A stretch of DNA of 64,000 nucleotides. Origin: Thuidium tamariscinum (Eukaryota; Streptophyta; Bryopsida; Hypnales; Thuidiaceae). Below the pieces are notes generated by a model, which was given only the letters and a program-made list of their open reading frames with translations, was not told the DNA's origin and ran no database searches. Positions 3,701 to 41,460 of the stretch are shown in pieces. How positions within the stretch are numbered: the stretch's first letter is position 1; every line of letters starts with the position of its first letter. The translations under genes were made by a program, and so were the position numbers. The stretch is from the NCBI GenBank assembly GCA_947034885.2, contig OX344750.2:36938821-37002820 (forward strand), read 5' to 3'.

Positions 3701-6700
3701 ACCCTGCATCAATTCCACAAGCATCAAGCAACCAAACCGCATCTTTATGCTTGTCCATTTGCTGCCTTGGTATATCAATCATCGGGACCGGATGCCATTT
3801 GTCGCCACTGGCTGTTGGGAAAGAGTTCTCCTGCATCCATGCGTAGCTCATTGCAGATACTATGGAGCTAAGTTCTGTGAGCCCACAAGGACAGAAGATC
3901 AATTATATTTCCAGCAACAGATAGTACTCTAATCCTAATTTATTTAACTGCAGAATATAAAAACTTCTGCAGGATACATGAATCGTAATAGGATTAAATC
4001 AAAGAGAAGGGTAAAAGTGTAGTACCAAGATCTCTTCCTGTCAGAACGATACAAAAGCGATCTGTATTTCCTGCATCTAAACCATTGCGAAGGCGGTCCT
4101 TTTGAGCTCTTAAAAAGTCGTTGAACTGCTGCACTTTAGGGCACTTGAATACAAACTGTGATGTCGAGGTACATGGATCTTCATTGCACTCAGCAGAACC
4201 ATGAATTTCCTGCCGAAACGATGATGATACTTGAGCATCCCACTCGTCTGCATCGATTGACAACCCCGTCGTCTTCCTCACACTGGTGCCACTCACAGTT
4301 GGACTCTCTATACTCTTGAAACTACCATAACTTTTGGTTGGGCTATCAGTACTACGGAAGCTCCCAAAACAATCCTCAAACAAGTCGCTGTCAGACGAGC
4401 CCCGCAAGAAATTCGCAGGATGGCTTCTCTTCCCCTCTGGTAAAGCCACTTGTTCCTGTGATCTTCTGAGAACATTGACACTAGGCGGGACGAGTAGCTT
4501 GCGTGGAGGCAGCAGTAACTCCTGGGCGTCTCGAGTTGGCAATCGCGGCTGACTGGGAGTGAAAGCTGTCATTGCAGGATCAGAACCTGAGCACAATGAA
4601 GAGGTAGTACCTGCGCAAAAACAGATTGTATGAAACCACATTCATTACCTTTCTCCCTCAAAAAGAAATTGTGTTCACTCAACACACAAACAGTTAACAT
4701 TGCCTACTTTGCCTGCATATAGAAGTAACTATTCTGCAAAAACCACAATGAATACATAGTCCTGGACAAGTGTAATTTTCAGATCCCACAGTCTACACTT
4801 ACACTACAGCACACTTGTCACACATTCAAACTATGTTAGTAATTTTGGGGGGAACCCAGGCAGCCAGATTAAAGAGTTGTACTAAAACCAGAGAAAGATT
4901 TTGAATAATCATGCACGTGGTTTGTAGTCCCCAACCCTACAGATAAGGTTTAAATGATGCAATAAAGAGGGGTATTTCTTAAGGTTACAGCCCTCAGTAC
5001 CGGCACCCCAGGATAAGACCCTCCGATGCTTGGGAACTCTGTCACAGGCAAACTTGTCAGCGCTTCCCCTCGTTGAGAAACGATCTGACTGGGATAAAAA
5101 CGTTTCACGAGCATCACTCATGATATCCGCAGTCGGGGAGGCAAATTCGTCAGGTCTTTGGTCACTTGTGCTCGGACACTGCTGAGGAATTGAAGAAGCC
5201 TTGGCAACCCCCTTGGCTGCTTTTGACCTCGATTTTGATCCCCACTTCCACTTCAAATTCCACGGCCAAGCAGCACTCTGTTTCTCAGAAGTCTCACACG
5301 ATAAAATGCCTTGTTGTTTCCTCACTGAATTCTGAGATGCTTCAATGCCACCATGTACTTCTGAACTCTCAGCTTTCACACCGTAAGCAGGATCGTGATG
5401 AGCTCCGTTGTTCATAGCCATCTCAAGTTCCCTCAGCATAGTCTCTCCAAGATTAGGGTCTGTCCAATTCCGATAAGAGAAATCAAGTTTACTAGGTTCC
5501 AGGTTCTCAGAGAATTCTCGATGCAGATTAGATGATTCCTTTGGACCAAAATCTGTCATGGCTTTTCCCGCTTTGGTTGAACCCCTTCTCTTACCTGCAA
5601 TCACCGTCATGGAGATACCAAGCTTAAGATTCTCAAACCCCAAACATATGAAACGACAAGTTCAAGGAATGAAAACTGTCAGTGCAAAGATATTAGAAGC
5701 ATCAAAATTGGTTACTACTTAAATCAAATGCTCAACCATCGTCATGACGTTAGCTCTGCATTAAGGAGCTTGTCAAAAAGACGCAAAGGGAACGATTGGT
5801 AATAATAATTCGATATGAGTTTACGAATTAAGTACCCAATTTTGAGTCATCCGACCCAGATCCAGATACCCGCCGCCCAGTGAACTTCAATTTTCTCAAG
5901 AGCCTTGAAGTCCTGGACTCTCCAGGGGCATATCGAGGAGAGGTTGGCAAAGACCCAGATAGACGGGACTGCGGTTGCTCGTCGCGTTGTGTCACTCGTG
6001 CTGATCCCCCAAACAAGGGATTTTTGCTAATATCACCCGACGTTTCCACGACCGTTGGTGTTCTCACTCTAATTTGAGGCAACCTGTTAGTTTTCCCAGG
6101 GAATATCTCCTCCCTGGGAAGCACAACGCCGTGTTTATGTGGATGCACAAGAACCCTGTCGCAGCTATCTGGAGTCCCAACCGCTGTCAACTGGGGTGAG
6201 AGGTGTTTCATAGTTTCATCAAAATGCAGACTTCGAGCCAAGGAGCGAGACGAGTAAGACCTATTTGAAGAACCCAGACCCGATCCGTCTACGCACTTAA
6301 TTGAAGAACCCTGGTTGCTTTTTTCAGGGCTATCAGTACGGGTTTTCTGGGGAGTCCAAATGCGCTGCCTTTGAAGAACCTCCAGAGAATGCACTCCTGC
6401 TGAACCCGGAGTTATCCCCTCTCCCAGAAGAAATTCTTGACTGACAGTAGACAGCCTGACAACCTTAGCTGGGGAGGCTTCCAGTTCGGCTGTGGCCATG
6501 TCCACCGGCATACGCTTGGTTCGTCTTCGAGACTCGCGCAGTCGAGACGAGCTGCGTGGGTCAGTGGTGATGATGGGTGAGCTCTCTGAAGGTATAATTG
6601 GCGTCTTGGGCGTCGAGTGAGGCGACTTCTCCACATGTTTCGTCAACTTACTTGGTGAAGGTTTTGGTGTCTCCAGGGATGACTTCTCTACATGTTTTGA

Positions 6701-8297
6701 GGCCTTTCTAGGCAACGATTTAGTACCCTTCCGAGGTGAGCTATCAGAACATTTAGGTATCTCCAAGGCAGAGAGAGGTGAATTTTCAGACCTGAGAGGT
6801 GACTTCTCCGTGTACATTGAGACTTTGCAGGGTGAGACCCCAGATGGTGTCTCCACAGCAGGTAACGTTATCTCGTGTTTCGTTGCTGTAAGAGGTATCC
6901 ACTTGAATGGCTTCGACGAGGGTTCATGGATCTTTTCAACATGTGTCAAGGTCCTGTGAGGTGACCTCTCTAGCTGCTTAGGCAATGATACGGAGGGCTC
7001 CTGCGTCTCTTCCACGCTTTTCTTGGTCCTGAGAGGTGATCTTCTCAACTGCTTAGGCGATGAAAAAGAGTAATCTAGCATCTTTCCCACTTGTTTCACG
7101 GTCCTGTGAGGTGATCCCTTTAACTGCATGGGCGAAGACATGGAGGGCTGCTGCATATTTTCCACATTCTTGGTTGAGTGAGGTGATCCCTCTAACTGCT
7201 TAGGCGATAAAACGGAGGGCTCCTGCACCTTTTCTAAAAGGTTCTTGGCTCTATGAGGTGATCTCTCCAGTAGCTTTGCCGACGGTAAGGACGGTGATTG
7301 TGCCTTTTCCACCTGTTTCCTGAAATGAGATCTCTCCACGGATCTCTCCAGTCTCAACCTTGGCGACACCTTTGGGACTTCAAGCTTGGAACCCTCAGGT
7401 GGCACATCTTCCGAGCGTTTGGGAACCTCGACTGCTCCCTTGCTGCCCTCCCCACTCAGCTTCCATCCCAGAGAAAAACTGGAGAATGACGCACCACGCT
7501 GAAGTGTTGGCTTCAGCTCCTTCGCCCCAACACTCAGACCAGCGAAGGTTGCAGGAACCTGTCTCAAGTGATGCATTATTATAAATCACATAAGAACTCT
7601 AGGTGAACAACCTCTCTACTGACAACGAAGAATTCTCTTCCTGCTGAGTACTAATATGCGGATTACCAGAAATTAGTAAACCACACTAGAATCAGGTCGA
7701 GGGCTTTCCTCACTAATGTCTGCAGCTTAATTATACACGAAACAAGGACAACCACAATCAGCATACCACTAACTCGCTGGAATCGTGAATGCTTAAGAAA
7801 TGTCTAAAGATACAATCCCTCCAAAGAGCAAGTCAAGTATGAAGCTGTTTAAAGTGAAGCTCATTAAGTGCCCGAATACACAAGATTAGGCCTATGAATC
7901 CGTCATCTTGAAGATAAAGCGAGTCCTGATAATCTGAACGTTGCCCTGTTTTGAGATATCATCATCTGTTCGGGAGCAGTTACGCCCGAGATCAAGCGAA
8001 GACTCTAGAAGCAAAATTCGTGGAGATTAAATGATGCAGTAAAGACGTCACAGGAGACATGGGCCTCTTGAAATGGAGGAGAGAAGGGGGAAGCTGTCGT
8101 ACCTCGTCCATCAGAAAGGTTGACGTCTGCTCGACGGCCGACGTCCACCAGCTGGCAATGTTCCTGCCGATGTCCCTGCCACTCTCGCTGCCCGCATCCC
8201 TGCCCACGCTTGGGGCCGTCTCCTTGCAGCTGCGAGAACGCCATGCCAACGCTTTTCCTCTCCCGGATCCACCAGGTTCTGATTCTGATGCAATCAT
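723..8297 (-). CDS. PRUNE-like DHH/DHHA2 protein with long repetitive N-terminus
   Basis: I model 13 exons (minus strand): 8297-8103, 7558-5836, 5594-5001, 4610-4026, 3874-3681, 3561-3481, 3344-3258, 2993-2873, 2746-2675, 2314-2099, 1473-1293, 1016-962, 866-723. Phases agree throughout, giving about 1,415 residues. Exons 5-9 align in order with animal PRUNE: a FNDFLRAQKDRL start, ELSSIVSAMSYAW, LLFADEVELSALMGAG, VGSVCTLL, LAGVLLDTENLD, then LREADDNARVSKL. PRUNE proteins are phosphoesterases of the DHH family and cytosolic signalling partners. The DHH triad is replaced here (IIGQDVL where family members have LVDHHIL) and the first DLDS motif reads ELSS, so catalysis is doubtful; the later Asp in LLDTENLD is kept. 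Residues about 66-1,000 are Ser/Pro/Lys-rich and probably disordered. The start is the first ATG of exon 1. Exons 1-10 are well supported. The acceptor of exon 11 and the weak donors of exons 11 (TG/GTCTGA) and 12 are less certain. Confidence 0.78.
1612..1880. repeat. Palindrome-rich intronic AT segment
   Basis: Within the intron between exons 10 and 11 of the PRUNE-like gene there are many short TTAAT/ATTAA and GTTAAC palindromes, including ATTAATG mirrored by CATTAAT. It resembles a decayed fold-back element but no clean ends or target duplication are visible. Confidence 0.25.
6961..7330 (-). repeat. Coding tandem repeat, about five 72-75 bp units
   Basis: Inside exon 2 of the PRUNE-like gene about five units of 72-75 bp follow one another. 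Each encodes a variant of SPKQLERSPHRTKK followed by VEK-x-QEPSV. The units differ by many substitutions, so the array is not recent. The SP-HR and SPK motifs look like proline-directed kinase sites (inference). Confidence 0.75.
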
Positions 8298-24291: not shown

Positions 24292-25600
24292 TGCAGCATA
24301 GGTCAGAATAACAGAAGCTAAGCTCTGTGACCTAGAATTTCGTCCCACTCATAAACCAATTTTCCTGGTCAAAATCCCTGAGTCCTCAATCACCATCATC
24401 AGAGTCAATTACTGCAAAAACTGTATGATATGTGGATCTTTGAAGAGATTCAAAAGCGACAGTGTAGTGACAAAATACAGTTCCATACGGGCTAATGTAC
24501 TGCGAAGCTCTGCACCATCGGATTTTGCAAAAGAGAATTTTGCGAAGTAAGAGAAGTTGTGAAGATTCGGATACCCGAGGAGTCTAACAACTACAAAGCC
24601 GGGCCTGACGACAAACTATTTCGGGCCTGCCTGCAGCTACAGTGAAGCCGCCATGCAATGGGAGCGGGGGGTCAGGTCGTGTTGAAGAAGCTTTGCTGCG
24701 CTGCCGTTGAGTTTAAATTTTGAACGAGAATCGTGGATGAAGAATGCTGTTTCGTGAGGATATCTGTTGGAATTGGATGAAGATGGGATCCAATAATGCA
24801 AGGTGACTCTACTGGGAGTACTGGCCCGTTGCTTAGTTTTGTTTATTTTGAAGTGCCAAGATGGCGATCACTTAAAATTTGGTGAAGCATTGTATTTCTA
24901 CATCCATCCACCTTTTGGACCAAAAACACTTTCCAATTATGTTCATACACTTTTTCATTCAATTTTGGCAATGTTGTCTATATTTTGAATAGAAATGAAA
25001 AAAATTTAGTGAAAAAATTACTTCAATCTAACAGAAAGTAGAAGATTGTTTTGAAGTGGTACAATTAAATAGATTGGTGATTACACCTAATAGTGTATGA
25101 TTAAGCATTCATTCAAACAATGTTTCAAGCTGTATTTAAAATGCTTAGTTTTCTAGTTGATCTTATTGGTAGTCAAAAGGGGATTCTATATTTTCTCCAT
25201 GTGCATTTTTGTAGATACCATATGAATAAATTATAGATTTTTAAGAGCTAAAAATAGGCATCTCTAAAAGCAACCCTAGGCTCTCATCGATAAATGTCGA
25301 ACTTTTAAGACAAGAATATATGGAAGATTGTTTTAGAAAGGGGTCAAAATGACATTAGAAAAGACTTGAACCCCAAAAGAGGCCACTTTGTAATGCAAAA
25401 ATTTGGGTGGGAAGAGCCTTTACAACTTACTAATTAGGCCAAGAATTCTATGATGAATTCAAAAATTAGTCATCATTACTCAATCATCTCTATGATCTCA
25501 TGAATTAGTGGGTGGGATGAGCCTTCTAAATTCACTAATTGGCCAAGAATTGCATTATGAATTCAAAAATTCATCATCATTATCCACATGACACAACGGA
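24292..25600. promoter_or_regulatory. Upstream flank of the SAP gene, then spacer
   Basis: 24,292-24,790 is GC-richer and should hold the promoter and 5' leader of the SAP gene; no TATA box was pinned down. From 24,800 the DNA turns AT-rich with no supported gene. Near 25,400-25,560 a short motif (TTCACTAATT-GGCCAAGAATT) occurs twice about 100 bp apart. Confidence 0.35.
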
Positions 25601-25619
25601 ATCCCTTCCCTGGAGTCTC

Positions 25620-26055
25620 ATCGATCCCAGCGCTCAAACACGTGTGTCAATCATGCATGCGAGGAAAGCTTCCAAGAGGCAAGATTCCAAAGAAATGCAC
25701 TTCTTTCATGACTTGCTAGTTCCAACTAATCCACTCCAACCCCTACCAATCATCTCACATATAGACCATGAGTATATTCTTACCTTTATTGATGATTTTT
25801 CTCGCAAAACTTGGCTTTATTTTCTTTCTGACAAATCACAAACTTTAGATTATTTCAAACAATTTCGAGCATTAGTAGAAACTCCTACCTAAAAAATAGG
25901 TACCCTTAGATCAGATAGAGGAGGAAAATACATGTCCACAGCCTTTTAGTCTTATTGTCATACTCACAGTATTATCAGATAGTTTACTACTAGCCATTTT
26001 CTTTACTCAAATGGCATAGGTGAATGCAAAAATTGTACTATACTCGAAGGTATTC
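25620..26055 (+). mobile_element. Ty1/Copia LTR retrotransposon fossil, integrase region
   Basis: The conceptual protein matches the Copia integrase core, with FLTFIDDFSRKTW-like and TLRSDRGG-like segments in the usual order. Only this part of the polyprotein is recognisable. No gag, reverse transcriptase, RNase H or LTRs are visible around it. It is broken by a few lesions and looks old. Confidence 0.7.
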
Positions 26056-28826: not shown

Positions 28827-30465
28827 ATGGGGCGATCAAGATGCTTGGTGTTGGTGTCCCTTCTTCTGCTAGTCCCTTCCCTCTTCTTCGTCTCCCCAGC
28901 GGCAGCAACTGCTTTCCACCCTGATGGTATGTATTGCACCCTCGAAGCTCCAAATCCTTTGTGTACATCAATCTTGACGAGATTTTCAGGTCACCCGTGG
29001 CTGGCCATATGTAAGAGAGGTCAGCTGTCTAGAATTCTTTTGTTCGTTCAAATTTTGGTCTAGTCCTGTTAGTTTCAATTCGGAACCACATGATTGTCGG
29101 TGGAGCATCTTGTTTCTGCAAGTCTGTTTTCTAGTACGACGAGTCACTGGGAAATTCGAACAGACATTCGCGTTGTAGATTCTGACTTGAGCATTGCAAT
29201 GCTTCCAGTGGTGGCATTCGGTGGACGTCGAAGTCTACTTCAAGCTACTCCCCCCACGCCAGCGACTCCACCTCCTGCGAGTCCCCCGGCTACTCCCCCC
29301 GCGCGAGCGACTCCACCTCCTGCGACTCCCCCGGCTACTCCCCCCGCGCGAGCGACTCCACCTCCTGCGACACCCCCGGCTACTCCCCCCGCGCGAGCGA
29401 CTCCACCTCCTGCGACACCCCCGGTTACTCCCCCCGCTACTGCCGCTGGACCAACTCCCCGTACCCCAACCCCAGCCCCAACCCGAGCCCCAGGTAAGGA
29501 TTCAACTTCCCTGTTCAGGTTTGAGATGTTCACAAGCTTTACCTTGAGTGTTGGAAGAGATATGCCCTAACAGAATCCAGAGGCTTGTTTTGCGATGTCG
29601 AATCTTACACTATTGCTGCATGCTATCCACAATTATTAAGGGGAGTCATAGTTGATCCAATTCCGGCGAACTTCCTGAAATCCAATTTAACGAGGGTTGA
29701 GGTGAAGATTGGGAGATGATGAAATTTGCGCGAAGAATGCATCAGAACTTGCCATCTGCCTCTCCATTTCTTCTGTCAAAAGATTAGGGATGACGTACGA
29801 GGAAACAGGAATCTAACGAGTTTGCTGAACTCCTCCTAACTCTCGGAATCTAGGGTTTGAGAATAGTGAGAGCATTACTACTGCTCAGTTGCAATTAACG
29901 AATTGGTAACGATTTCATGTTTAGTTTCTACTGCAATCTGCTTATTTCATTGCATTTGCACATTTTGCAGTGTCTGCTCCCGTTCCAGTTCCAGTTCCTA
30001 TCTTCGCTCCTGCTCCTGCTCCAAGTACATTTTCTTATCCTCACTGATAACTCCATGTTATTTATCGATTAGGTTATAGACATGCACTATTGATTGACGA
30101 AAATATTCATAGAGAAATGAACAAGTCACTTCATGCAAAACCAAAATTCTCCAAAGGTTGTGCAACAGTGAAAATAGGGATTTACGAGTCTTGGGTGCCA
30201 AATTTTCATGACATTATTCTGCTGTAGAGAGCCTGTGGAATTGCCATAGTCAGAGCGTTTTCATTTAGATGAATTTTCCTAAACATTTGCTCGACTGTCT
30301 TTCTTTTGTGCAGTCGGAGTCACAAACTCGCAAAGACGCAATGCTATCATCGCCGGAGGCGTCGTAGGCTCTGTGGTTCTTGTTGCAGTCGTCCTCATTT
30401 TCTGCCGCTGCCGGTTCTTGAAAAGATCGAAGAAGCTGCCATTTCAAAGACTGCAGATGACTTAA
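28827..30465 (+). CDS. Arabinogalactan-like Pro-rich protein with C-terminal membrane anchor
   Basis: Exons: 28827-28926, 29209-29493, 29971-30024, 30314-30465. All introns are GT/AG in phase 1, and the product is 196 residues. Residues 1-27 are a signal peptide (basic MGRSR, then a Leu/Val-rich core ending AAATA). After a GRRSLLQ segment comes a TPP/APP/PAP-rich ectodomain (about residues 46-146) with the spacing typical of Hyp O-glycosylation. The third exon adds a PVPVPVP and APAPAP run. The last exon encodes a transmembrane helix (IIAGGVVGSVVLVAVVLIF) followed by CRCRFLKRSKK and a short cytosolic tail. A basic tail after the helix argues against a GPI anchor. The ATG sits in a good context (GCCATGG); upstream in-frame codons lack ATG. 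An AATGAAATAAAG stretch near 30,809 may be the polyadenylation signal. Confidence 0.82.
29244..29440 (+). repeat. 45-bp coding tandem repeat, four units plus a partial
   Basis: Four units of exactly 45 bp (29244-29288, -29333, -29378, -29423) encode 15-residue variants of ATPPARATPPPATPP, followed by a partial unit. Units 2-4 differ at only one or two bases, which points to recent expansion or gene conversion. Confidence 0.9.
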
Positions 30466-31049: not shown

Positions 31050-32765
31050 CTAGGCATCGGAAACTCTATTTCCACATTGGCCGTTTCGCACATCGGTACA
31101 GAAGGTGCTCTGGACGTTGAAATTGTAACTGGAGAGACCAGAGTTGCTGATAGGCTTCGCCCCAGTGAGGGTGAACGTGACGGAGCCGCGTTGGAAAGTG
31201 GCGGATTGCGTTCCAGTCTGGAACCCCATGCCGTGCACATTGACGCCCTGCGTTGCTGTGGTGACGCTCGTCTGAGTGCCGGATTTGAGAGTGATGGTTG
31301 CAGACGCGCCGGGTTTGAGTACCGTGACAACGTAGACGGCGTCAGAGAGCTTGTCCGCGTGCAAGATCCCGCAGGGTTTGCTAGGCACGTTTGTGCTGTG
31401 GCTCTGCGTGAAGTAGAACAAGTAAATCTGGTCTGTTGTGGACACGGGCTCGCTGCCTGTCTTGTACCAGCTGATGTAGTGCTTGCCGAGCTCGAGATAG
31501 GCTTGGTGAGGGAAGCCCGCCACGTCCACCGAGATTTTAGACGCGCCTCCGCTCAGCGGTGGGGAAACGTAATGCCCCTCGAACCAATCGTTCCAAGTGA
31601 CAATTTCCACCAGCGGAGGCGAGCTGGCGATGATCTGCGACCATTTCTGAAGCCACAGACCGGGGCCTTGGTAATCGCCTTTCACTTGGCACGGGCACCC
31701 CGACCAGGAGTCTGGATTCCCGTTTGGATCACACGACGGAGAATTCGAAACGCAACAAGCCTGATTGTTATCTGCGTTTTTGAAGAACCACGGCGACACC
31801 TGCCAGCGCCACACATGCAAGTGAGGGTTTGAAGGGCAGATACCGAAGAGTTGAAAACTATTTTTGCTAGCTTGGGGAGAAGAAGCTGTACACGAGGCTA
31901 TCGATTGCTTAGTCATTAACTCTTTACCAATTTAAGAACTCACTTTGTAATGATACACCAAGCAAGCTTAGAATGGGCTACCAATTTGCTGGAAAAATCA
32001 AACAGAACTGCGATGGTGCACTGGCCATAGCTTGCTTGTGGGGGTTCTATGACCTACCATCGCCATATAGGTTTTGCCCAAATCCTTGCTCACTCGAAGT
32101 GAATCTGCATCCCCAGGCGAGGTTGTCGGCACGGAGAAGTTGCCGTTCCGGTAGTTCCAAGCAGAGGTTTCCCATCCATAGGTCCCATCTACAGTCGCTC
32201 CGAAGCGGTCGTAAACGGTGCCCTTCACTCCGAAGTAGGACCCATCGGTGGGGAAGAAGGGCAGAAAGAAGTACAACCCCTTGCCTCCTGCTTGCGCGAA
32301 GATGTCGTTCCATGCCGTCACGGAGCTTTGACCCCAGAAGGAGTCGTCGTTGCCTAACCACGACGTGAAAAACGCCTTGTTCTGGTACTTGAGCTGGTTC
32401 GGGTGGGTTCGGTAATCCACCAGCATGGACACGATGTTCGCTTTCGACAGACGGTCGTTCGGCGGCGGCACGGACGCGTCGCCGATGTGGATGTCCGCCG
32501 AGAAGAAGAGCTTGAAATTGGTGCCGAGCTCCAGGGCAGCTTGGTACATGTTATCGAACAGCGTCTTCCGGTATATGTTAGTGTTGAGCGCAAACGCGTC
32601 TATGCCCTTGCTCTGCGCAAGCTGAATCTCCTGCTTGTAAGTGGCGATGGTGTCGGGGAAGTAGATGAGATAGTGAGCGAACACCATCTTCGGTTGCGCT
32701 GCGGCGGACCATGCTTGGGTTCCGAGCAGCAACACACACACAACCGCTATGACTACAGTCTTCAT
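31050..32765 (-). CDS. Secreted GH71 alpha-1,3-glucanase (mutanase-like)
   Basis: Two exons (minus), 32765-32058 and 31799-31050, are joined by a 258-bp GT/AG intron at phase 0, giving 485 residues. Residues 1-24 are a signal peptide (MKTVVIAVVCVLLLGTQAWS). The mature protein opens with PKMVFAHYLIYFPDTIATY and GIDAFALN, the typical GH71 start. It continues with FFTSWLG, a GLYFFLPFFP strand, and across the intron KTYMAM/VSPWFFKN, then VEIVTWNDWFEGHYVSP, the signature close to the end of the barrel. The last 150 residues form a beta-rich C-terminal module as in fungal members. GH71 enzymes cleave alpha-1,3-glucan, a fungal wall polymer, so the product probably acts outside the cell on fungal or microbial glucan (inference). 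The length is complete and no lesion is seen. The gene converges on the AGP-like gene to its left. Confidence 0.9.
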
Positions 32766-40241: not shown

Positions 40242-41210
40242 TCATAAACTAATGGAACGCAGGCTGCTTTTTTTCTGCACGGAGGACGACGCTGATGATT
40301 CCGCCTGCTTCTTGGGTGCGCCCCCGAAGTGGTTCTTGAAATGGAGCTCAGGCGGTGCCAAACACTGATGCGGCGTCGCGCAGAAAATCTCGTCCGGATA
40401 CCACTGAGGTCCATCTCCATTGACAGCACTCGCAGACGATGCCTCCGGCTTGGCCAACGGTTTCAAGCAGAACCCCGCACTGAGCCTCTTGTCGTGCAGG
40501 ATTTGCCCAATTTCGCAAGCGGTGTGTTTGTGCCCTAGTCCCAGGCAACTCGAGCACTGACTCGGCACATCTTCGTACTCCAATGCAATCTCCACTTCCT
40601 CATTCGTGATCGGAATGGGAAGCACGAGCGCCGAGGGCAGCGTTCGCAGATCCTCTACCAAGACGCAAATGCGTGGAGTGGACGATTTCTTCAAATACTC
40701 CTCCCTCTCCCCTGTCCACACGACCTCGCCGATGTCAGCGCACAGACTGGGCAGCGCGCGGATGTAGATGTCGTCGAGAAGCGGGAAACGGATCCAGATG
40801 GGGATGCGGATGCCGGACATGGGCTTCTCCGGGTCGAACTGCGGCTTCCAAGGGTGCAGGTAGAGGCGGTGCCCGGTGCCGAATTCGAACGGGCTGGATT
40901 TTAGGGCTTCCAGCGCTCTCTCTGCTGCAGAAAAGGTCAAAACGAAGTAGCCTCGCTTCAGCATTCGGATTCGTGTCACCACCAAAGAGGGCTCCTTCCA
41001 TGAGTTCAAATGGAGGTCTACCCACGACTGCAGCTCGATTCGAGAGGGCTGACGGGTAGGCACAACGCCGATCAATGCTAATTGCGAAAGCGACAACGCG
41101 TCCTCGGTGATCAGGGCTAAAGTTTCGGCAGACAGGTGGGGCTTCAGTTTGGGACCCTGCGGCAGGGGAAACGCGCGCATATCTTTGCAACTCAGCCGCT
41201 TCCTTGCCAT
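40242..41210 (-). CDS. DUF4283 plus CCHC zinc-knuckle protein
   Basis: An uninterrupted 322-codon reading frame on the minus strand. Residues about 40-200 match DUF4283, the nucleic-acid-binding gag-like domain of plant L1-type LINE ORF1 proteins, with landmarks LVVTRIRMLKRGYFVLTF, FKWTP-like LHPWKPQFDPEKP and IPIWIRFP. A zinc knuckle follows at about residues 227-240: CSSCLGLGHKHTAC, the CX2CX4HX4C spacing. The tail is Ser/Lys-rich. The ATG at 41,210 is the first in frame. No reverse transcriptase is found downstream, so this is either an orphan LINE ORF1 or a domesticated gene; the open frame in an otherwise decayed region favours recent origin or selection. GC content is well above the flanks. 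Confidence 0.75.
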   Translation of the reverse strand: MARKRLSCKDMRAFPLPQGPKLKPHLSAETLALITEDALSLSQLALIGVVPTRQPSRIELQSWVDLHLNSWKEPSLVVTRIRMLKRGYFVLTFSAAERALEALKSSPFEFGTGHRLYLHPWKPQFDPEKPMSGIRIPIWIRFPLLDDIYIRALPSLCADIGEVVWTGEREEYLKKSSTPRICVLVEDLRTLPSALVLPIPITNEEVEIALEYEDVPSQCSSCLGLGHKHTACEIGQILHDKRLSAGFCLKPLAKPEASSASAVNGDGPQWYPDEIFCATPHQCLAPPELHFKNHFGGAPKKQAESSASSSVQKKSSLRSISL

Positions 41211-41460
41211 TGAGGCCAACACCTAATTCAACCCTGTACCAATTCAGAACAAAGTAGACTACACAACAACTGTGGTACTAGAGAGACCAGAATGGAATGT
41301 CAAAAACAGAGAAAACTTAAGCCTCTTCCTTGCCATGGCAGCAAGTCACACCTAACTTACTTCAACCCTGCGTCAAGTCAGAAACTCCACGAGAAGCAGA
41401 CATAACAGTAACAGGCTGATAGAGACCCCGGAAAGGAATGGACCAAAAAAAACAAAAAAA
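41196..41460 (-). repeat. Diverged tandem duplication over the start codon region
   Basis: CTTCCTTGCCAT near 41,199-41,210 and again near 41,325-41,336 begin two parallel segments that share TTCAACCCTG, TCAGAA, TAGAGACC and GGAATG in order. The upstream copy carries its own ATG encoding MARKRL, as in the real protein, but stops after about 25 codons, giving a small upstream ORF. Confidence 0.55.

Follow-up and report, generated by a model that had tools for sequence, protein, structure and literature searches.

An intact GH71 glycoside hydrolase gene in the moss Thuidium tamariscinum, grouped beside two fungal enzymes

Introduction

Does a moss carry a working glycoside hydrolase of family GH71, and if so, on what would the enzyme act and from where did the gene come? 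The question is raised by a 64,000-nucleotide stretch of the Thuidium tamariscinum genome, termed the window, which occupies positions 36938821-37002820 of contig C2 in a 363-Mb assembly of 19 contigs. A gene near 36.97 Mb of this contig encodes, on the minus strand and in two exons, a complete GH71 protein of 485 residues. An earlier account made from the letters of the DNA, here called the sequence-only reading, had described it as an intact, secreted alpha-1,3-glucanase and had suggested an old transfer from fungi. The analysis presented here makes it probable that the locus is a functional nuclear moss gene, that its product is a secreted hydrolase of alpha-1,3-glucosidic bonds acting on fungal walls, and that it belongs among plant GH71 genes already noted by others. 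Its derivation from fungi, by comparison, is doubtful.

A complete GH71 gene with one intron

The spliced frame of the gene (Table 1) is open for all 485 codons, and its product matches the Pfam family Glyco_hydro_71 (PF03659) in two stretches with 225.4 bits (E value 1.3e-66; cut-off 34), the sole family found at E <= 0.001. Each exon alone exceeds the cut-off, covering profile positions 1-184 and 203-371 of 375. The top three sequence matches in the PDB are all fungal GH71 enzymes, namely Agn1 (8e-31), a variant chain of Agn1 (4.6e-30) and AnGH71C (2.7e-26), whereas the remaining nine are unrelated (E 0.12 or worse). The moss protein aligns end to end with both Agn1 and AnGH71C. The open frame and the Pfam score bear out the intact, full-length copy that the sequence-only reading had described.

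Splicing of the 258-bp intron is indicated by its GT and AG ends, by the in-frame stops that its retention would introduce and by the GH71 homology regained across the junction, where YMAM is followed by VSPWFF; the plant-type intron claimed earlier thus has its basis in these sequence features. Likewise, the proposed signal peptide is probable by inspection and hydropathy, and the protein is probably secreted. Its sole strong hydrophobic stretch lies at the N-terminus (residues 4-14, mean Kyte-Doolittle value 3.75, as against 1.81 for the best later stretch).

The assembly was searched with the Pfam profile and with the moss protein itself, the best candidates being scored, so that diverged copies could escape; a single GH71 locus and no paralogue were found. 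A third match in the own-protein search, on contig C10 (E 0.45), was dismissed as noise. The Pfam GH71 profile matched none of 14 control genomes.

Table 1. Features of the GH71 gene and of its surroundings in the window
Feature	Position	Strand	Basis
GH71 gene, coding span including stop	31050..32765	-	spliced translation, Pfam, PDB sequence comparison
Exon 1, residues 1-236, N-terminal part of beta/alpha barrel	32058..32765	-	fold by homology to AnGH71C (9fnf)
Probable signal peptide, about residues 1-23 (MKTVVIAVVCVLLLGTQAWSAAA)	32697..32765	-	hydropathy; cleavage site by inspection only
Intron, spliceosomal-type, 258 bp, GT...CAG, phase 0, in-frame stops	31800..32057	-	sequence
Exon 2, residues 237-485 and TAG stop; remaining barrel, C-terminal beta-sandwich	31050..31799	-	domains by homology
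Cysteine-rich insert (C251, C252, C259, C271, C273) between SPWF and E301	31689..31757	-	alignment
Catalytic Asp307, general base, equivalent to AnGH71C Asp265	31587..31589	-	alignment; mechanism from passages of PMC12394665
Catalytic Glu310, general acid, equivalent to AnGH71C Glu268	31578..31580	-	alignment; mechanism from passages of PMC12394665
Repeat open reading frame and adjoining piece	29094..30465	+	
Open reading frame with DUF4283	40245..41222	-	Pfam
Open reading frame with integrase core rve	25539..25889	+	Pfam, below threshold
Longest listed open reading frame	5831..7585	-	

The catalytic site

Statements attributed here to PMC12394665 and PMC10006428 rest on passages of these two papers. 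In AnGH71C, a (beta/alpha)8 barrel is joined to a C-terminal sandwich, and the catalytic pair opens the loop following strand 8; the enzyme is inverting, and replacing either Asp265 or Glu268 abolishes activity (PMC12394665). The corresponding Asp/Glu dyad of the moss protein, of the form DxxE (D307/E310), is present in 71 of 71 rows of the alignment described below and is placed by homology at the end of barrel strand 8. Moreover, 58 columns are conserved across 85% or more of the other 70 rows, and at 46 of them the moss protein has the conserved residue. A moss enzyme built in this way would split alpha-1,3-glucosidic bonds with the inverting chemistry of GH71, in which Asp307 would activate water and Glu310 would pass a proton to the leaving group.

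A cysteine-rich loop and the probable substrate

Secretion into the apoplast followed by action on fungi would be the likeliest role of such an enzyme, and alpha-1,3-glucan or nigero-oligosaccharides of fungal walls would be its likeliest substrate. Alpha-1,3-glucan reportedly helps fungi to escape plant immunity, and none is known from plant walls. As far as sequence can tell, the role against fungal walls suggested by the earlier reading is plausible, whereas its other suggestion, a part in spore and tapetal wall handling, is neither favored nor opposed by the analysis.

In the moss protein, the stretch between SPWF and E301 measures 59 residues and holds five cysteines. The same stretch has 32 residues in Agn1 and 29-55 in the 68 bacterial rows; the count of 24 for AnGH71C is 8 too short because 8 residues were left out of the alignment. 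Six bacterial rows (L067, L069, L071, L074, L096 and L097) have 53-55 residues there, with 0-2 cysteines and a different sequence. Within this long-loop bacterial group, two cysteines occur at that place in three of the six. The moss insert would sit after strand 7, beside the cleft.

Such a loop, with its cysteines and its 59 residues as against 32 in Agn1 and about 32 in AnGH71C, might speak for an enzyme directed not at fungi but at a glycan of the plant itself or of bacterial biofilms, as in the turnover of spore wall or surface matrix. We regard this as rather unlikely, given the apparent absence of alpha-1,3-glucan from plant walls noted above and given that the GH71 enzymes studied in PMC12394665 cut alpha-1,3-linkages.

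Several points nevertheless weigh against a moss hydrolase of fungal walls. Among the 58 conserved columns, 12 are changed or gapped in the moss protein, and at position 366 it has F where both fungi and 67 of the 68 bacteria have R. The long branch of the moss protein, described below, is a further point of this kind. The loop by the cleft differs from that of the fungal enzymes, and specificity may therefore differ as well. Two A. nidulans GH71 enzymes are good on soluble oligosaccharides and minimal on insoluble alpha-1,3-glucan, although the same two do cleave linkages in fungal biomass (PMC12394665). Furthermore, the literature passages on the family contain no assay of any plant GH71 enzyme. 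With one intact copy found in the moss, a simple knock-out could show whether the plant enzyme attacks fungal alpha-1,3-glucan.

Relation to fungal and bacterial enzymes

From bacterial and viral loci, 89 domains were obtained, and the 68 kept (74 bits, span of at least 300 residues) are all bacterial. A quick tree of 71 rows combined these with the moss and two fungal sequences. For a careful tree of 49 rows, near-copies and long branches amounting to 22 of the 68 bacterial rows were taken out manually, which left 46. Fungi are represented in the trees by two ascomycete sequences, Agn1 and AnGH71C, and the moss sequence is the only plant row.

The grouping of moss with fungi is the one best supported in these trees, as far as the sampled sequences indicate. 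The moss joins the two fungi in the quick tree with a Shimodaira-Hasegawa-like approximate likelihood ratio test (SH-aLRT) value of 97 and in the careful tree with a bootstrap of 99 and an SH-aLRT of 97, where it lies outside the fungal pair. The grouping persists under Dayhoff-6 recoding (SH-aLRT 97.4, bootstrap 99) and in a short LG+C20 search (SH-aLRT 96.8). With AnGH71C as the lone fungus and stricter columns, a pair with the moss again forms, whose support label may have shifted on re-rooting. The approximately unbiased (AU) test rejects pairing the moss with either fungus on its own (p 6e-6 and 1e-5), with the bacterial loci L095, L004 and L006 (p 0.006) or with a 16-row bacterial group (p 0.024); these groups were named after the tree had been seen, and the test carries any long-branch pull. 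In our reading, the moss lineage appears to be a deep one, near yet outside the two sampled fungi.

The moss branch is long, at 1.7 changes per column in the 49-row tree, and in both the 71-row and the 49-row analyses the program warned that long branches meet. In a quick tree without the fungi, the moss stood beside a bacterial group with no starred support; when the moss was omitted, the fungal pair likewise stood apart from all bacteria. That each stands apart is also expected from two long branches.

An old transfer from a fungus to a plant, the origin proposed in the sequence-only reading, would lead one to find the moss gene nested within fungal diversity, and among the two ascomycetes sampled it lies beside them, not inside, as both AU rejections of a single-fungus pairing underline. 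In favor of such a transfer are the branch that sets plant and fungi together on one side, its persistence under both alternative models and four sites common to the moss and both fungi yet rare in bacteria, including H312 (0/68) and W240 (1/68). These residues are unexceptional, however, as 7 of the 68 bacterial rows reach four or five such fungus-shared rare sites. Moreover, at 12 sites where both fungi depart from the bacterial majority residue, the moss shows it; at 10 sites it is the fungi that show it and the moss that departs. Signature residues, tried as proof of fungal kinship, were accordingly indecisive, with bacterial rows giving similar counts. With long branches flagged in the trees and a 'possible bacterial origin' of plant GH71 in print (PMC10006428), a fungal source is possible but doubtful.

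The latter proposal, made for gymnosperm GH71, would have the gene pass from a bacterium to a plant. BLASTP lends it some weight, in that Agn1 (127 bits) and AnGH71C (116) are both outscored by 16 sequences from bacteria, at 172 to 130 bits, as does the quick tree without fungi, in which the plant has its unstarred place beside bacteria. Every tree that includes the fungi places the plant with them, however, and the AU test turns down both bacterial groupings, post hoc as these were. A bacterial source is therefore to be entertained only tentatively.

Vertical descent, in which plants and fungi had GH71 from a common ancestor and most lineages, angiosperms among them, later lost it, would account for a plant sequence beside and not within the two fungi. 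It would require many losses across eukaryotes, and the tree is without a known root; we think it unlikely. More improbable still is a broader picture in which an ancient GH71 lineage, sister to that of fungi, has survived in land plants other than the flowering ones, remodeled by its cysteine-rich loop beside the cleft and secreted to strip the alpha-1,3-glucan layer that hides fungi from plant immunity, and in which angiosperms have lost it. The moss gene also corrects the idea that plant GH71 must derive from fungi.

GH71 in bacteria and viruses

The family had been introduced in the sequence-only reading as known chiefly from fungi, a description that does not hold. Bacterial enzymes make up about half of known GH71 diversity and are uninvestigated (PMC12394665), and of 123 stretches picked out by pattern in prokaryote contigs, 59 were loci that encode relatives. 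The records of these loci name Verrucomicrobia, Lentisphaeria, Planctomycetota, Armatimonadetes, Acidobacteria, Bacteroidetes, Burkholderia and others. In genome samples taken by phylum, the moss protein was matched (E <= 0.001) in 23/387, 1/395, 3/296, 14/201, 6/216 and 3/199 genomes, rates that are biased upwards because each sample includes centre genomes picked as positive; the weakest of these matches are short pieces that may belong to other barrel families. Three of four genomes in the order of L095's genome match the moss protein, and all twelve bacterial genomes picked as positive score over the Pfam cut-off, the highest at 254 bits.

Seventeen Burkholderiaceae rows from Caballeronia, Paraburkholderia, Burkholderia and Cupriavidus fall together in a single starred group of the quick tree (L022-L025, L029-L032, L034, L038, L040, L041, L047, L049, L053, L059 and L060). 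A viral source of the moss gene was considered and rejected: viral contigs gave 77 pattern stretches, of which two encode relatives, both short matches to GH99-like open reading frames (ORFs). L065 and L066, from IMG/VR, are by inspection phage-like contigs in which a GH99/GH71-like barrel ORF with TWNDWGEG lies beside an HNH-type ORF.

Host genome and neighboring sequences

A LEAFY gene of the assembly lies on contig C4, with KMRDYVH and GAWCQACY in the DNA-binding region. We take its D and C to be positions 312 and 345 and of the moss type, reportedly defined by Sayou et al. 2014. By this rule, the host is a moss because LEAFY has D and C at the two typing positions.

The base composition of the gene could be taken as a sign of contaminating fungal or bacterial DNA. 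The exons have a G+C content of 0.56, which no 2-kb bin of the window reaches (range 0.27-0.51), and a third-position G+C content (GC3) of 0.72, above the 0.50 and 0.51 of two LEAFY exon pieces; the intron has a G+C content of 0.45. The high GC3 is not read as foreign because one control gene, LEAFY, is too few. Contamination is disfavored, to the point of being very improbable, because the gene has an intron, lies near 36.97 Mb of a contig in a 19-contig assembly that bears a plant LEAFY and has low identity to the microbial sequences of the trees, the closest row being 34% identical over some 379 columns. The earlier judgment that contamination is unlikely is therefore upheld by the intron and the contig position and not, as had been argued, by a place between other plant genes. 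Among the 30 ORFs scanned with Pfam, of 87 in the window with at least 90 residues, none matched an ordinary plant gene family, and only two gave matches at E <= 0.01, both transposon-like. Rfam, at the gathering threshold, gave 0 matches in the window.

Four neighboring ORFs may be mentioned (Table 1). The one with DUF4283 (326 residues, 34.7 bits, above the cut-off) also has a weak zinc knuckle and presumably resembles part of a retroelement. That with the integrase core, at 19 bits as against a threshold of 32.6, is a probable retroelement remnant. Next to the GH71 gene is a repeat ORF rich in proline, alanine and threonine and without a Pfam match, followed by an ORF piece of hydrophobic, membrane-spanning look; together they are perhaps a gene for a cell-surface proline-rich protein. 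The longest ORF listed for the window (585 residues) matches no Pfam family.

Comparison with known systems

Agn1 of Schizosaccharomyces pombe (PDB 8yfh, 9m6l), which we take to be the endo-alpha-1,3-glucanase of cell separation, has family and dyad in common with the moss protein and is 28% identical to it by BLASTP, although its loop is shorter. AnGH71C, or MutA, of Aspergillus nidulans (PDB 9fnf) is 27% identical by BLASTP and resembles the moss protein over its full length, in the DxxE dyad, in SPWF and in the H two residues after the Glu, but is without the cysteine-rich insert. Its structure and inverting mechanism have been reported; those of the moss protein are predicted from it. The nearest bacterial GH71 sequences, L095 (from a genome in the phylum of an Armatimonadetes record; 30.7% identical) and L003 (Verrucomicrobiales; 29.4%), match over the full length and outscore both fungal enzymes by BLASTP, but have neither SPWF nor H312. 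GH99, whose barrel is related to that of GH71, has an E/DxxE dyad (PMC12394665); from this family the moss protein is set apart by its Asp and by PF03659 as its sole Pfam match.

The occurrence of GH71 in plants, finally, is not new to print. Plant entries in CAZy are two, both from Sitka spruce (Picea sitchensis ACN40311.1 and ACN40737.1), and further homologues are noted from yew, from cedar and from 'some mosses and liverworts', Taxus chinensis and Cryptomeria japonica being named (PMC12394665). Torreya grandis has seven GH71 genes, and plant GH71 is placed in 'gymnosperms and prior lineages' (PMC10006428). Compared by description only, these genes are like the one in Thuidium in belonging to the same family and in coming from land plants outside the angiosperms, and the moss gene most likely adds a member to this known, little-studied set.
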